Assembly: GCA_017449215.1 (NCBI GenBank)
Contig: JAFSJY010000087.1
Coordinates: 1-64,000, forward strand
Source: Acholeplasmatales bacterium
Lineage (GTDB): Bacteria; Bacillota_I; Bacilli_A; Acholeplasmatales; Anaeroplasmataceae
Reading direction: 5' to 3'
DNA length: 64,000 nt
Below are positions 30,619 to 37,341 of this stretch, piece after piece. The notes under the pieces were generated by a model, which saw only the letters and a program-made list of their open reading frames with translations, did not search any database and was not told the DNA's origin. The stretch's first letter is position 1; every line of letters starts with the position of its first letter. The translations under genes and the position numbers were made by a program.

Positions 30619-32961
30619 TTATTTTATATCATGGAATTTTAAGCTAATATCAAATGCCATAACTGAGTGAGTTAAAGCACCTACAGAAATATAATCTACT
30701 CCTGTTTCTGATACTTCCTTAATTCTACCTAATGTCATATTTCCTGATGCCTCAAGCTTCTTCTTATGATCATTTAGCTTAACACATTCAGCCATCATTT
30801 CAGTTGACATATTATCTAGCATAATAATATCAGCTTCTGTATTTAAGGCTTCCTTAAATTGGTCTATATTTTCTACTTCAACCTCAACCTTAATATTTGA
30901 AGGCACCTTAGTCTTAATTAATTCTACGGCCTTTGTAATGCTACCTACGGCATCAATATGATTATCCTTAAGCATTACCATATCAGATAATGAGAATCTA
31001 TGATTAGTACCTCCACCATGCTTAACAGCTAGCTTTTCAATATATCTTAAATTAGGTGTAGTCTTTCTTGTATCTAAGATTTTAGTATCACCTACAACCT
31101 CATGAACATATTTATTAGTTACTGTTGCGATACCTGACATTCTTTGCATCAAATTAAGAGCTACTCTTTCACCCTTTAAGATTGTCTTAGTCTCACCATC
31201 TATTTCAGCGATAACATCATATTTATTAACCTTATCGCCATCCTTAACATTAAATTTGATATTGAATTCTCCACCAACAATTTCAAATACTCTCTTTACT
31301 ACCTCACATCCAGATACGATACCTGTATCCTTGGCAATAAATTTGGCATGAGATTTATCTCCATCCTTAAAGATATTATCAGTTGTAATATCTCCTGCTG
31401 GCATATCCTCCTTTAAGGCATTCTTAATTATTCTATCTACAACCATTAAATCCATATTATAGTTAATTCTATAATGTGAACCAACTGATTCAGTTCTTCT
31501 AATAGCTGCGTTAATAATTAATAATGCACATGTAACCATATTTAATGTTTCAAAATAATATCTACTCATTACATGAATCTTTAATAAATTCTTATAATGT
31601 GTTTCAATAATATTTTTAGCAATTTCAAGTCCATCTGGAGTTCTTACAATTGATACATATTTATCCATCAATTGTCTAACCTCAACTCTAATTGACTTGA
31701 AGTTATATTTCTTAAATTCATGTGGTAATTCAGGAATATAGCTACTCTTTGGATTTATATCAGTAGCCTTATTAATATCATCAGCGATTCTTTTACCAAA
31801 TACTAAGCATTCAAGTAATGAATTAGATGCTAATCTATTCGCACCATGAACACCAGTATTAGCACATTCACCTACTGCGTATAAATTAGTAAGTGATGTA
31901 TGTCCATAAACATCTACATTAATACCACCACATAGGAAATGCTCAATTGGGGCAACAGGGATATAATCCTTAGACATATCAACACCAATTGATAAGCACT
32001 TATTGTAGATTGTAGGGAATCTCTTCATTAAGAATTCCTTACTCTTATGAGTAATATCTAGATATACATGGTCACTCCATGTATCAAACATTTCTCTATA
32101 AATAGATTGAGATACTACATCTCTTGGAGCTAGCTCCATTCTTTCCTTATCATATTTTGCCATGAAGCGCTCTCCTTCAATGTTCTTTAAGATAGCACCC
32201 TCACCACGAACTGCCTCACTAATTAAGAATCTTTGACCAGTCTTATCCTCTTCATAAAGACCAGTTGGATGGAATTGAACGAATTCCATATTCTTAATTT
32301 CAACACCAGCTCTATAAGCAAGTGCGATACCATCACCCATTGCGAACTTCTCATTAGTAGAATTCTTATAAATACCACCACAGCCACCAGTTGCGATAAC
32401 TATTTTATTAGAAAATATTGCATGTGGCTCATTTTCTTGGTTAATTACAATAACACCTACGGCCTTATTATTTTCCTTAATAATGCTAAATGCCATCCAA
32501 TCCTCAAATACAGAAATATTACTTCTTGCATGTAATGCATTTCTTAAATCCTCCATTACACGCGCACCAGTGGCATCACCACCAGCATGTAATATTCTTC
32601 TAGATCTATGGCCACCTTCTAATGTTTTAACAAGCTCGCCACTTTCATTCTTATCAAAATTAACACCAATATTAATTAGATTCTTAATATTTTCTCCAGC
32701 CTCATTAACTAATATTCTAGTAGCTTCCTTATCATTAATATAAGAACCAGCTCTTAGAGTATCCTCATAATGCTCCTGAATCTTTTCTGGATTAAAATCA
32801 ATTTCAGCTGCGATACCACCTTGTGCTAAATTCGAAGATCCCTTATCAATTTTATCCTTGGCAAAAATACCAATCTTATAATTAGGATTAATATTCATTG
32901 CAGTATACATACCTGCAAGACCAGCACCTAATATAACGACATCAAATACTTCCTTTTTCAT
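30619..32961 (-). CDS. nadBC: L-aspartate oxidase / quinolinate phosphoribosyltransferase fusion (NadB-NadC)
   Basis: One 780-residue chain carries two steps of de novo NAD synthesis. Residues 1 to about 495 are NadB: FAD-binding GAGLAGMYT, SNLAQGGIAAEID, HSRRILHAGGDATG and EFVQFHPTGLY. From about 500 to the end is a complete NadC: DRIIKNALKEDMPAGDITTD, LNLMQRMSGIAT, DTRKTTPNLRYIEKLAVKHGG and VEVEVEN. The join is seamless, with no stop, frameshift or internal ribosome site visible. Coupling aspartate oxidation to quinolinate consumption could limit release of unstable iminoaspartate-derived intermediates, although NadA acts between them. It is the last gene of the NAD operon, 14 bases after nadA. 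Confidence 0.95.
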   Translation of the reverse strand: MKKEVFDVVILGAGLAGMYTAMNINPNYKIGIFAKDKIDKGSSNLAQGGIAAEIDFNPEKIQEHYEDTLRAGSYINDKEATRILVNEAGENIKNLINIGVNFDKNESGELVKTLEGGHRSRRILHAGGDATGARVMEDLRNALHARSNISVFEDWMAFSIIKENNKAVGVIVINQENEPHAIFSNKIVIATGGCGGIYKNSTNEKFAMGDGIALAYRAGVEIKNMEFVQFHPTGLYEEDKTGQRFLISEAVRGEGAILKNIEGERFMAKYDKERMELAPRDVVSQSIYREMFDTWSDHVYLDITHKSKEFLMKRFPTIYNKCLSIGVDMSKDYIPVAPIEHFLCGGINVDVYGHTSLTNLYAVGECANTGVHGANRLASNSLLECLVFGKRIADDINKATDINPKSSYIPELPHEFKKYNFKSIRVEVRQLMDKYVSIVRTPDGLEIAKNIIETHYKNLLKIHVMSRYYFETLNMVTCALLIINAAIRRTESVGSHYRINYNMDLMVVDRIIKNALKEDMPAGDITTDNIFKDGDKSHAKFIAKDTGIVSGCEVVKRVFEIVGGEFNIKFNVKDGDKVNKYDVIAEIDGETKTILKGERVALNLMQRMSGIATVTNKYVHEVVGDTKILDTRKTTPNLRYIEKLAVKHGGGTNHRFSLSDMVMLKDNHIDAVGSITKAVELIKTKVPSNIKVEVEVENIDQFKEALNTEADIIMLDNMSTEMMAECVKLNDHKKKLEASGNMTLGRIKEVSETGVDYISVGALTHSVMAFDISLKFHDIK

Positions 32962-32975
32962 AAGCTACCTCCAAA

Positions 32976-33887
32976 TTATTTACTAAGCTCAAGCATCTTA
33001 TCTAAGGCAACTCTTGCCTTATCCATAGTATCCTTATCTAAGGTTACCTCAAATTCCTCATTTAAAAGACATTTATAAACATCCTCTAATGAGATAAGCT
33101 TCATAGATTTACATAATAAGCCATCACTTAATAAATAGAATTTCTTATTAGGATTTCTCTTTTCTAGCTCATGCATAATACCATTTTCAGTACCAATAAT
33201 AAATTCAGTTGCCTCACTCTTAGTACAATATTCAATTATACCCTTAGTTGAGCCTGCATAATCTGCAATTTGTGTAAGCTCATATGGAGCCTCAGGATGA
33301 ACACAGAATAAAGCATTAGGATGTGCTTCCTTTGCTTTCTTAACATCATCTAATGTTAATCTATCATGGATTTGACAACAGCCATTCCATAAATCAATAT
33401 CATATCCATATTCCTTAGCTGCGTAATTACCTAAATTCTTATCTGGGCAATATAGAATCTTTTGATCCTTATAATGCTCTAAAATCTTTAAAGCATTTGA
33501 AGATGTAACGCAGCAGTCAGATAAGGCCTTTACATCAGCGTATGTATTTACATAGGAAATGACTACTCTATCAGGATGCTCTTCCTTATATTTTCTTAAT
33601 GATCTTGCATTTATTAAATTTGCCATGTAGCATGGTAAATTCTTATGTGGCATTAATACCTTTTTATCAGGAGATAAAATCTTGGCAGTTTCACCCATAA
33701 ATAATACACCACAGAATACTATAATTTTAGCATCAGTCTTTTGAGCAATTACTGATAAATTATATGAATCTCCTAAATAATCAGCAATATCCTGAACCTC
33801 ATCCTTTTGATAATAATGAGCAAGAATAATTGCATTCTTTTCCTTCTTTAATCTATTGATTTCCTTAATCATTTCATCTTTTGTCAT
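32976..33887 (-). CDS. nadA: Quinolinate synthase
   Basis: This [4Fe-4S] enzyme condenses iminoaspartate with dihydroxyacetone phosphate. Start chosen: ATG at 33885-33887, 7 bases after AGGAGG, giving 303 residues; the longer frame to 33935 starts inside the upstream gene. Family segments are ILAHYYQKDEVQDIADYLGDS, FCGVLFMGETAKIL, a Cys in SDCCVTSSNA, CVHPEAP, TENGI and LCKSMKLISLEDV, with the cluster cysteines apparently kept. The start overlaps the 3' end of nadD-nrtR by 14 bases, so translation is coupled. Confidence 0.96.
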   Translation of the reverse strand: MTKDEMIKEINRLKKEKNAIILAHYYQKDEVQDIADYLGDSYNLSVIAQKTDAKIIVFCGVLFMGETAKILSPDKKVLMPHKNLPCYMANLINARSLRKYKEEHPDRVVISYVNTYADVKALSDCCVTSSNALKILEHYKDQKILYCPDKNLGNYAAKEYGYDIDLWNGCCQIHDRLTLDDVKKAKEAHPNALFCVHPEAPYELTQIADYAGSTKGIIEYCTKSEATEFIIGTENGIMHELEKRNPNKKFYLLSDGLLCKSMKLISLEDVYKCLLNEEFEVTLDKDTMDKARVALDKMLELSK

Positions 33888-35298
33888 TTTCATTCCTCCT
33901 AGTAAATAGCGCGGCTGGTCTATGACCACCATCACTTCTTACCTCATCTGTTTTTATTACTAAATCACTAATACTTCTTCTAAATACTGGATCTAATAGC
34001 TTTTTATCTAAGATTGCCTCATATACTAATTGTAATTCCTTTAATGTAAATTTTTCAGGCATCATATGGAATACAATATCAGTATAATTAATCTTACTTT
34101 GTAATCTTTTTATAGATGTTACTATAACCTCTAAATTATCAAATGCTAAATCATTATTTTCCTTTTCTTTATATGATTCTATACCATATTGGTCTATAGT
34201 CTTAGAAACCTTACAATTAAATGATTCATCATCATTAGAAAAATTAATTTCTATTTCATTGTCATTTTCAATAAATGAGATATTAAAGAATGACGCATTT
34301 GGATTTAGATTATCTAATACCTTAGCCTTATCAACCAATCCTAAATAGCTACATGATAATACTCTTCCTCTAATATCTCTATCGATATCAGAAAATGTAT
34401 ATAGCTGTTCAAGATAAATATCATCTAGATTGGCATCAGAGAATAATACTCTTTTAGCACAATCTAATAATGTTTCATCTAGCGAAAGAAATCCTCCAGG
34501 TAAGCACCACTTACCCTTAAATGGTGGAGTAGTTCTTTTAATTAATAATACACTAAATGCCTTCTTATTATTCTTTCTATAATTAGATTTAGAAATATCA
34601 CTAACACTAAATAATGTAATATCAGTAGTAATACTCATCTTTTCATAATCATCAGCGTTATATGATTTTAAGAATTCCTCATCAGTCATATTAGAATAAT
34701 CATTATCTACATAATTTTTCTTATAGAATCCTTTTTTTATAATATAATCATAAACATTAGAATCTAAATATTCCTTAACCTTAGGATCCTCCTCTTCAAG
34801 CATTCTTCTTATTTCACTTGAATTAGTAGGAGCTAAATCAATATCCATAAATTCTAATTCACCATTATATTTACTATATTTTTCTATTTCATTTTTAGCA
34901 TCTACATTTTTTCTATCAATAACTAATAAATTATATTGATTTAAAATATATTCATATCTTTTCCATGTATTAAAGCTTTTTAAATTATCAGAGCCTAATA
35001 TAAAATATAATTTATCTCCCTTATACATATTAGCTAAATAATCTAAGCTTCTATATGTACAAATTAAATTATTCTTAAATTCATAATCAGAAATGATAAC
35101 TCTATCATTTCCCTTAAACATAAGTTCTAACATTTGTATTCTATATTCGCCCTTTAGTAAATTACTTTTATTATAATAATTACCAGTTGGAATAATTACA
35201 ATTCTATCAAATATATTTCTATTTAATAATTCCTCTACTAATTTTTTATGAGCTAGATGACATGGATTGAATGAACCTCCATATACACCTATTTTCAT
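33874..35298 (-). CDS. NadD fused to an NrtR-like Nudix/winged-helix NAD regulator
   Basis: Residues 1-194 are nicotinate-nucleotide adenylyltransferase (NadD): GGSFNPCHLAH at 7-17, LGSDNLKSF and TNSSEIRRML at 158-167. Residues about 222-370 form a Nudix-like domain with LLIKRTTPPFKGKWCLPGGF. The Nudix box keeps G269, E275 and R283 but the REUxEE glutamates are replaced (RVLFSD), so hydrolysis is unlikely. Residues about 413-466 (EKFTLKELQLVYEAI, FRRSI, GGHRPAALF) match the winged helix of NrtR, the Nudix-related repressor of NAD genes that senses ADP-ribose or NAD. It overlaps nadE by 4 bases and nadA by 14. The enzyme plus autoregulator role is inference. Confidence 0.9.
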   Translation of the reverse strand: MKIGVYGGSFNPCHLAHKKLVEELLNRNIFDRIVIIPTGNYYNKSNLLKGEYRIQMLELMFKGNDRVIISDYEFKNNLICTYRSLDYLANMYKGDKLYFILGSDNLKSFNTWKRYEYILNQYNLLVIDRKNVDAKNEIEKYSKYNGELEFMDIDLAPTNSSEIRRMLEEEDPKVKEYLDSNVYDYIIKKGFYKKNYVDNDYSNMTDEEFLKSYNADDYEKMSITTDITLFSVSDISKSNYRKNNKKAFSVLLIKRTTPPFKGKWCLPGGFLSLDETLLDCAKRVLFSDANLDDIYLEQLYTFSDIDRDIRGRVLSCSYLGLVDKAKVLDNLNPNASFFNISFIENDNEIEINFSNDDESFNCKVSKTIDQYGIESYKEKENNDLAFDNLEVIVTSIKRLQSKINYTDIVFHMMPEKFTLKELQLVYEAILDKKLLDPVFRRSISDLVIKTDEVRSDGGHRPAALFTRRNENDKR

Positions 35299-37208
35299 AA
35301 ATTCTCTAGCTCCTTTAAATACATTTTATTAAATGTGTCAGAGCTCATTCTTAAATCACCTCTTGGTGATACAGCAACGCTACCTACCTTAATACCATCA
35401 GGTACACAGTTACGCTTAAATTGCTGAGTAAAGAATCTTCTAACAAATACCTTTAGGGTTGCCTTTATTTCCTCTTCCTTAAATTCATCCTTAAATGTAC
35501 GGCAGGCTAGGAAATAAATTTTCTTTAATGGCGCACCATAACGTAGGAAATGATATAGGAAAAAGTCATTTAAAATATATGGTCCTACACTCTTTTCAGT
35601 TGCTTGAGCGATATTACCATTATCATCTAGTGGTAATAGCTCAGGTGAAATAGGTGTATTTAATATATCTGTTAATGTTTCCTTTATAATACCTTCCTCA
35701 CCATCTCTAATATGACCAATTAATGTTGTTACTAATGTTTTAGGAATAGAGCAGTTAACACCATAATTAGACATATGATCTCCATTATATGTTGCCCATC
35801 CTAAGGCAAGCTCACTCATATCTCCTGTTCCTACTACTATACCATTTTCTTGGTTAGCAACATCAAATAATATTTGAGTTCTTTCTCTTGCTTGAACATT
35901 TTCATATGTAATATCATAAACTCCATCTGGATGCTTTATATCCTTAAAATGCTGGATACATGCATCCTTAATAGAGATTTCTCTAAAATCAGCACCATAT
36001 GCCTTTATTAAATTAACTGAATTATTATAGGTTCTTCCTGATGTACCAAAGCCTGGCATTGTAATTGCTATTACATTAGTAGAAGGTAAATTTAATATTC
36101 TAGTTACCTTCATTGATACTAGGAAGGCAAGTGTTGAATCAGCACCACCTGAAATACCAATTACCATTTTAGAATTTCCAATATGCTTTACTCTCTTAGC
36201 TAAAGCATAGGCTTGAATATTTAAGATTTCCTCTAAGCCTTCCTTTGTATGAGCAAGGAATGGTTTTTTATTATATTCTCTTAATAATTCATTTTCTCTT
36301 CTTACTAATGAGAAGTGAGTTTCCTTAACATCAATATCAAAATCTACAGTTTCATAGCTTCTTTCTTTAATTCTATCACTCATTATTCTTTGAATATCGA
36401 CATCCTGAATAATCATATTAGATTCAAACTTAAATCTTTCATTTTCAATAAATGTTCCATCTGGTTCAGCAATCATGGCATGACCTGAGAATAATATATC
36501 ACTTGTAGATTCATTAATACCACTAGATGCGTATACGTAAGCGGCTAATGTTTTAGATGCTTGCATCTTAACAAGATTTCTTCTATATGAAACCTTACCA
36601 ATTGTTTCATTAGATGAAGATAAATTAAAGATGATATTAGCACCCTTTAATGATGTGAAATTTGATGGAGTATTAGCCATCCATAAATCCTCACATAAAT
36701 CTATTGCGTATGTAACATCAAAATTATCACACTTATATAATAGCTTATTTGATATTACTACCTTTTCTCCTAATAATTCTATTGAATCTAGCTTTAATTC
36801 ATTTCCACTCTTAAAATATCTAGCCTCATAGAATTCATTATAGTTTGGAATATATGTTTTTGGAGTTATACCAATAATATGACCATCATAAAATGAAATT
36901 GCACAGTTATATAATGAATTATTAATTCTAATTGGTGAACCAACAATAAAGATAGTTTTAGTTTCCTTACTAAAGCTTTTTAATGCTGCTAATCCATTAA
37001 TACATCCATTATATAAATCAGTATTTAAGAACATATCCTGAGCTGTATAGCCTACAATAGATAATTCAGGGAATGTTACTATTTCTACTCCCTTACTATC
37101 AGCTTCCTTTACTAATCTAACAATTTCAGATACATTGTAATCTACATCACATAAATGTATTTCATTTACAATAGCACCAACTCTTACATAGCCATATTCC
37201 TTTAACAT
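35295..37208 (-). CDS. nadE: Glutamine-dependent NAD synthetase
   Basis: This enzyme amidates nicotinate adenine dinucleotide to NAD using glutamine. The 637-residue two-domain form has an N-terminal nitrilase-type glutaminase (Glu in FPELSIVGY, Lys in TPKTYIPNYNEFYE, Cys in AIDLCEDLW) and a C-terminal ammonia-dependent synthetase with the P-loop GISGGADSTLAFLV and GTGDMSELALGWAT. Start chosen: ATG at 37206-37208, 8 bases after GGAGG; the frame to 37223 contains that site. It is first in the operon nadE, nadD-nrtR, nadA, nadBC, with a promoter that carries palindromes. Confidence 0.97.
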   Translation of the reverse strand: MLKEYGYVRVGAIVNEIHLCDVDYNVSEIVRLVKEADSKGVEIVTFPELSIVGYTAQDMFLNTDLYNGCINGLAALKSFSKETKTIFIVGSPIRINNSLYNCAISFYDGHIIGITPKTYIPNYNEFYEARYFKSGNELKLDSIELLGEKVVISNKLLYKCDNFDVTYAIDLCEDLWMANTPSNFTSLKGANIIFNLSSSNETIGKVSYRRNLVKMQASKTLAAYVYASSGINESTSDILFSGHAMIAEPDGTFIENERFKFESNMIIQDVDIQRIMSDRIKERSYETVDFDIDVKETHFSLVRRENELLREYNKKPFLAHTKEGLEEILNIQAYALAKRVKHIGNSKMVIGISGGADSTLAFLVSMKVTRILNLPSTNVIAITMPGFGTSGRTYNNSVNLIKAYGADFREISIKDACIQHFKDIKHPDGVYDITYENVQARERTQILFDVANQENGIVVGTGDMSELALGWATYNGDHMSNYGVNCSIPKTLVTTLIGHIRDGEEGIIKETLTDILNTPISPELLPLDDNGNIAQATEKSVGPYILNDFFLYHFLRYGAPLKKIYFLACRTFKDEFKEEEIKATLKVFVRRFFTQQFKRNCVPDGIKVGSVAVSPRGDLRMSSDTFNKMYLKELENL

Positions 37209-37231
37209 AGTTAAATCCTCCATTTTAGTTT

Positions 37232-37260
37232 ATTCTAATACTATTAGAAATCATAGTCAA
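37232..37260 (-). promoter_or_regulatory. NAD operon promoter
   Basis: TTGACT (complement of 37255-37260) and TAGAAT (complement of 37232-37237) are exactly 17 bases apart. The same two hexamers and spacing occur at the lipoprotein promoter 39232-39260. Confidence 0.8.
37233..37249 (-). promoter_or_regulatory. Candidate operator over the NAD operon -10 box
   Basis: TTCTAATACTATTAGAA is a perfect 17-base palindrome (8-bp arms, single central base) that covers the -10 hexamer and part of the spacer. Position and symmetry fit a dimeric repressor; the NrtR-like domain encoded by the second gene is the obvious candidate. This is inference. Confidence 0.6.
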
Positions 37261-37267
37261 TATGTTT

Positions 37268-37288
37268 TTATCAATTTGATAATATCAA
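37268..37288 (-). promoter_or_regulatory. Overlapping palindromes upstream of the NAD promoter -35
   Basis: TTATCAATTTGATAA (37268-37282) and TTGATAATATCAA (37276-37288) are two perfect odd-length palindromes sharing seven bases, just upstream of the -35 box. They may be a second operator or an activator site, but AT-only palindromes arise easily in this composition. Confidence 0.35.
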
Positions 37289-37307
37289 AAAGATAAAAAG
37301 TATAAGA

Positions 37308-37334
37308 TAAAAGAAAATGCCTCCTAAGAGGCAT
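37308..37334 (-). terminator. Terminator of the YD-like lipoprotein gene
   Basis: AATGCCTC (37315-37322) pairs with GAGGCATT (37327-37334), with a short loop and TTTTC tail on the minus strand, 8 bases past the stop. Confidence 0.85.
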
Positions 37335-37341
37335 TATCTAT

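Follow-up and report, generated by a model that had tools for sequence, protein, structure and literature searches.

Can an enzyme of NAD synthesis and the regulator of the operon that encodes it be one and the same protein? The question is raised by an open reading frame in a 64,000-nt stretch of Acholeplasmatales DNA (the window; all coordinates are positions in it). An earlier note, made by reading the sequence without database searches, proposed that this frame joins nicotinate-nucleotide adenylyltransferase (NadD) to a Nudix-like domain and a winged helix with the architecture of NrtR, a Nudix-related regulator of NAD genes, and that the enzyme and the regulator of its own operon are thereby combined in one chain. 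The frame starts with ATG, encodes 474 amino acids and contains no internal stop codons. Its parts are:

33874–35298, minus strand: nadD::nrtR fusion gene, 474 aa, kept at full length in two genera
34717–35298, minus strand: NadD domain, residues 1–194 (TIGR00482, PDB and Foldseek)
34690–34716, minus strand: linker, residues 195–203 (alignment of 14 fusions)
34075–34689, minus strand: Nudix-like effector domain of NrtR with an N-terminal extension, residues 204–408 (PF00293; 5bs6, 3gz5)
33904–34074, minus strand: NrtR winged-helix DNA-binding domain, residues 409–465 (PF21906)

Domain composition of the fusion protein

The presence of all these domains in one frame was borne out by Pfam and NCBIfam models, each of which scored above its cut-off. 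The NadD part matches TIGR00482 (121.6 bits; NCBIfam cut-off 112.45) as well as PF01467, and it contains the nucleotidyltransferase motifs GGxFxPxHxxH and SSxxIR in the form of GGSFNPCHLAH and SSEIR. These motifs are kept across the fusions, except for H14, which is Asn in one of them. Residues 244–323 match PF00293 (NUDIX; 34.5 bits, Pfam cut-off 21.1), and this domain is followed by PF21906 (NrtR_WHD; 66.4 bits, cut-off 27), which is the domain order of NrtR. The earlier note had made its reading depend on a significant match of the winged helix to NrtR, and this match was found with an E-value of 2.4e-18. The start of the regulatory part required adjustment: whereas the Nudix-like domain had been placed from about residue 222, the NrtR part begins at about residue 204, its N-terminal extension (MTDEEFLKSYN...) being homologous to the extreme N-terminus of stand-alone NrtR (MTEAEYLANY in SoNrtR). 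Because of this homology, it is a complete NrtR that is fused to NadD, via a linker of ~10 aa. The position of the junction is constant in 14 aligned fusions, with length differences of 1–2 aa only.

Searches of the PDB by sequence revealed matches of the N-terminal 194 residues to NadD structures (best 8aih, E 7e-13) and of the C-terminal 280 residues to BtAraR (5bs6, E 6e-25), SoNrtR (3gz5, E 3e-20), an Enterococcus Nudix protein (2fml) and NadQ. A structure prediction, which the earlier note had suggested for comparison with NrtR crystal structures, leads in the same direction. The AlphaFold2 model, a monomer of medium confidence (pLDDT 78) built from the 14 fusions, resembles AraR/NrtR structures as well as the NadD structures of Bacillus and Enterococcus, with 5bs6 (E 1e-15) and 3gz6 (TMt 0.73) retrieved by Foldseek for the NrtR part and 1kaq (TMt 0.82) for the NadD part. 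Thus, by the features tested, the protein is a NadD and a member of the NrtR family, an identification on which sequence, fold and phylogeny (see below) agree.

In the Nudix box (signature GX5EX7REUXEEXGU), G269, E275 and R283 are retained and VLFSD takes the place of EUxEE, as had been read from the window. The three retained residues are invariant in 14/14 aligned fusions, and the first catalytic Glu is Val or Ile in all 14. An impaired Nudix signature was reported for NrtR and AraR proteins (PMC4666351), and the impaired box fits a sensor rather than a hydrolase. The equivalent of His131 of BtAraR is Asn in the window's protein and in roughly half of the fusions, a difference that could affect how a ligand is bound. 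The ligand-contact residues known for AraR are mostly common to the family and point to no particular effector. The label of ADPR-responsive NrtR was not transferred to the fusion, because the score against the corresponding equivalog model of NCBIfam, NF050029, is 127 bits for a cut-off of 400.

The fusion gene encodes the only NadD in the window's genome, which is 98.7% complete. As it is the only one found, its NadD domain likely has NaMN adenylyltransferase activity. One other match to TIGR00482 in this genome was rejected as a second NadD; it is weak and partial and lies in a 163-aa frame, the size of a CoaD-like protein.

Distribution and origin of the fusion

The domain order was searched for in other genomes, as had been proposed. 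In an order-level sample of 160 genomes, the full-length fusion was found in about 14 further species from two genera of the window's family, with 57–88% identity, besides partial fusions at contig ends. A contig search of an independent genome collection yielded only members of the same clade, i.e., the fusions of Bacillales bacterium UBA7004 and Anaeroplasma sp. SUG234 (L032, L033), and stand-alone relatives. Outside the clade, the architecture was absent from a class-level sample of ~395 genomes and a phylum-level sample of ~392, in which all other PF21906 matches were in stand-alone frames of ≤325 aa. The arrangement was found nowhere else in the genomes searched. The open-access literature, a scope that leaves out the founding NrtR papers of 2008 and 2009, yielded no earlier description of a NadD-NrtR fusion.

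In quick trees, with SH-aLRT but no bootstrap support values, the fused NadDs form one clade (SH-aLRT 98), and so do the fused NrtRs (SH-aLRT 100), which argues that the fusion arose once. The fused NadDs group with the NadDs of NAD operons in which the genes are separate (SH-aLRT 91) and not with the stand-alone NadDs of their own family. The closest stand-alone NrtRs come from a different family of the same class and are encoded in NAD operons, where nadD is located upstream of nrtR, as in the orders pncA-pncB-nadE-nadD-x-nrtR (L034) and nadE...nadD...nrtR-nadK (L164). A separate nadD upstream of nrtR in one operon is, therefore, the likely ancestral state, and the simplest history would be that the two genes of such an operon fused once, in an ancestor shared by the two genera.

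Since the analysis relies on draft genomes, and in many cases on metagenome bins, one could suppose that an assembly error or a frameshift joined two neighbouring genes, and the earlier note itself had considered confinement to one assembly with an indel at the junction. The probability of such an artefact is negligible. The fusion is present at full length in at least 14 independent assemblies with a constant junction, and each half forms a single clade.

The nad operon and its predicted operator

The fusion gene is the second of a set of genes on the minus strand, for which the following features were found, listed from upstream to downstream:

37316–37335, minus strand: predicted terminator of the preceding gene, which is thereby set apart from the nad operon
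37265–37299, minus strand: predicted operator TTTTTATCTTTTTGATATTATCAAATTGATAAAAA, composed of two NrtR-like boxes that overlap; adjoins the −35 of nadE
37232–37260, minus strand: predicted promoter of the nad operon, TTGACT-17-TAGAAT, with the same layout in related species
35295–37223 (likely start 37208), minus strand: nadE, glutamine-dependent NAD synthetase, first gene (NF002730, 783 bits vs. 473)
32976–33935 (likely start 33898), minus strand: nadA, quinolinate synthase (PF02445, E 3e-118)
30619–32961, minus strand: nadB::nadC, fusion of L-aspartate oxidase and quinolinate phosphoribosyltransferase, with which the pathway operon ends (TIGR00551 and TIGR00078, above cut-offs)

In the window's genus, the genes are arranged in the order nadE, nadD::nrtR, nadA, nadB::nadC and are overlapping or closely spaced. 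An ATGA is shared by nadE and nadD::nrtR, and the likely start of nadA overlaps the end of the fusion gene. Together, they encode the complete set of enzymes that lead from aspartate to NAD. The sister genus lacks nadA, nadB and nadC downstream of nadE and nadD::nrtR. Neither PncB (TIGR01513) nor NiaR was found in the window's genome, and no known riboswitch was matched between 29000 and 38000 (Rfam, up to E 1).

Two further observations concern the distal genes. The nadB::nadC fusion is a single gene of 780 codons, with a 778-aa counterpart on contig L156 of the same genus. NadA of the window (32976–33898) is only ~35–41% identical to that of most species of the genus (L038–L043), whereas its neighbours NadE, NadB and NadC are ~65–84% identical in the same comparison; an in situ replacement of nadA seems to have taken place.

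The candidate operator is a 35-bp near-palindrome with 15 of 17 symmetric pairs. It is the best 35-mer in the window, where all others reach at most 13 such pairs; the maximum in 1 Mb of Markov sequence was 14. In all nine readable operons of the genus, it is located 2–4 nt upstream of the −35, with a mean pairwise identity of 0.87 vs. 0.39 and 0.44 in the flanks, and symmetric changes within the palindrome are seen (GATATTATC to GTTATTAAC). In the sister genus, where the site is also close to the −35, TTTTTAGCAGAATGATAATAA is invariant at the same place in seven species and the remaining upstream region differs. The core motif alone was discarded as a genome-wide marker: it has an exact match in 23 of 55 genomes, mostly away from nadE. 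Since it is too common, the complete 35-bp site and its position near the −35 were used instead. This site, with 30–32 of 32 consensus positions, occurs only upstream of nadE in fusion operons; all other core matches are at background level (≤24/32), and there is no further full-length copy among those in the window's genome.

In operons with a stand-alone NrtR, boxes of the type TTATTAAC-N5-GTTAATAA are located over the −10 and in the leader. A symmetric weight matrix trained on these operons only ranked the site beside the −35 first in 16/16 fusion promoters, a result that is not fully blind, as the seed was picked after the fusion promoters had been seen. Some training sites are weak. In one promoter (G101), the best frame was shifted, still inside the same palindrome. 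Several positions in the window score as high as the weaker operator sites. Because of these caveats, position and conservation carry the argument. The palindrome at 37265–37299 is probably the operator of the nad operon, and the suggestion that the fusion regulates its own operon gains support from a conserved, single-copy site of this kind at the operon promoter, resembling the sites of stand-alone NrtRs.

The TTATTAAC-N5-GTTAATAA box is usually present in two copies, one of them over the −10, in the upstream regions of L034, L161, L162, L166 and L167, and it is probably the box of uncharacterised stand-alone NrtRs in Bacilli.

Function of the fusion and comparison with known systems

We consider it quite probable that nadD::nrtR encodes a bifunctional protein, i.e., a NadD enzyme and the autoregulator, most likely a repressor, of nadE-nadD::nrtR-nadA-nadB::nadC. 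The N-terminal domain would make nicotinate adenine dinucleotide, the NadD step, whilst the complete NrtR half would form dimers via its Nudix-like domains and, by binding to the 35-bp palindrome that adjoins the −35 of nadE, control its own operon. Binding of a NAD-derived ligand, such as ADP-ribose, in the Nudix-like cleft would cause the repressor to leave the DNA. Both the repression and the release by such a ligand are probable by analogy with characterised NrtRs, since those that act on NAD genes have proved to be repressors (PMC6800001; PMC4666351; PMC12735969).

The position of the site, from about −40 to −74, is one where activators are more usual than repressors. With a box centred at about −57, the classical position of an activator, throughout the nine operons of the genus, and near the −35 in the sister genus as well, the NrtR half might bind its operator and activate. 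Since the box is located upstream of the −35, activation is a live rival, yet an unlikely one, given the repressors just cited. Moreover, the same box overlaps the −10 and the leader in the related stand-alone operons, which is the geometry of a repressor, and blocking of an UP element is another way in which an A/T-rich box between −40 and −74 could act. Considerably less probable is the idea that the palindrome belongs to another regulator and that the fused NrtR acts elsewhere or nowhere. NrtR sites do differ greatly from group to group (PMC4666351), and resemblance to published boxes is thus no basis for assigning a site. However, the same type of box precedes NAD operons with a stand-alone NrtR in another family, and NiaR and a second full-length site among the core matches are lacking from the genome. 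We attach as little probability to a loss of DNA binding, after which the Nudix-like domain and the winged helix would merely serve NadD as an allosteric or structural module. An adenylyltransferase followed by a Nudix domain is also the order in NadM-Nudix proteins, of which 2qjo and 2r5w are among the fold matches, but whole NadM chains fail to superpose (TM 0.26–0.30) and the Nudix box is impaired, unlike that of NadM. Furthermore, the winged helix keeps its family-level conservation (FRR, DGGH.P) in the aligned fusions and scores well over the PF21906 cut-off, and a conserved predicted operator is present.

A different issue is whether the two halves communicate. The chances are not far from even that both halves work and that their union in one chain brings fixed stoichiometry only, a reading that is compatible with a bifunctional autoregulator and denies only the coupling. 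NAD genes of this family fuse readily, as illustrated by nadB::nadC in the window and by a NadD-NadE protein in L147 and L148. On the other hand, all related genomes with a whole readable locus, in both genera, have retained the fusion, but the same outcome is also expected from inheritance after a neutral fusion. The alternative, which we put forward tentatively, is a flux-sensing trigger enzyme, in which the catalytic state of NadD or its dinucleotide product controls whether the NrtR half, within the same dimer, binds DNA. The sole NadD would then read its own turnover and set the transcription of the whole pathway from aspartate to NAD. In BtAraR, the N-terminus crosses to the ligand cleft of the partner (PMC4666351), and NadD is attached at precisely this end, so a direct coupling to turnover is possible.

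Known members of the NrtR family (SoNrtR, 3gz5/3gz6; MsNrtR; SsNrtR; and the divergent BtAraR, 5bs6, and NadQ, 7q91) share with the fusion the order of a Nudix-like domain and a winged helix, the impaired Nudix box, the linkage to NAD genes and a palindromic operator at the promoter, which is predicted here. They are stand-alone proteins of ~225–340 aa, whereas the fusion has a complete NadD at its N-terminus. NadR of enterobacteria resembles the fusion in combining an adenylyltransferase of NAD synthesis with a regulator of NAD genes on one chain, but its hosts have a separate NadD. The repressor domain of NadR is N-terminal and is joined to an NMN adenylyltransferase of weak activity and a ribosylnicotinamide kinase domain (PMC6800001). 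In the fusion, NadD itself is the fused enzyme, the sensor is Nudix-like, and families and order are different, with no regulatory family in common; its score against the NadR model TIGR01526 is 19 bits vs. 341, and no N-terminal HTH or kinase domain was matched. NadM-Nudix proteins (2qjo, 2r5w), which are both NMN adenylyltransferases and ADP-ribose pyrophosphatases, also have their adenylyltransferase N-terminal to a Nudix domain, but the enzyme is of the NadM type, the Nudix domain is catalytic and the winged helix is absent; against the NCBIfam models (PRK05379), the fusion scores ≤37.5 bits for cut-offs of 354–449. It would seem that, separately from NadR and with different families, an adenylyltransferase of NAD synthesis has here merged with a transcription factor of NAD genes. 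The fusion is found in relatives of Anaeroplasma among gut bacteria, within an operon covering the complete route from aspartate to NAD. It offers a compact, testable trigger-enzyme model with a precise predicted operator and, for a group of stand-alone NrtRs in Bacilli that are still uncharacterised, a likely DNA motif.

Some other NAD-related proteins and genomes deserve mention. The NadD-NadE protein of L147 and L148 (G126 and G127) is 805 aa long, with NadD N-terminal to glutamine-dependent NadE. Several nearly complete genomes of the window's genus (G089, G095, G109, G114 and others) contain no NadD above the cut-off, fused or separate, and some other genomes of the genus encode a PncB-like protein of 401–408 aa. 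The bin G090 of the same genus (L055, L156) contains the end of a fusion-type operon (nrtR end-nadA-nadB::nadC) as well as a stand-alone NrtR that accompanies a salvage operon (pncA-pncB-prs-nadK); either two NrtRs are present in one genome or the bin is mixed. A stand-alone NrtR-like protein in G044 (L056:519–1418) has an intact-looking Nudix box (RELKEE) and may, therefore, still be a hydrolase. Finally, a 523-aa protein from the window's family (G116, L152:2157–3725) combines a NadD-like adenylyltransferase with a microbial-type poly(ADP-ribose) glycohydrolase (PARG) domain (PF10021, E 1e-23), a pair suggestive of NAD recycling or NAD-based conflict.
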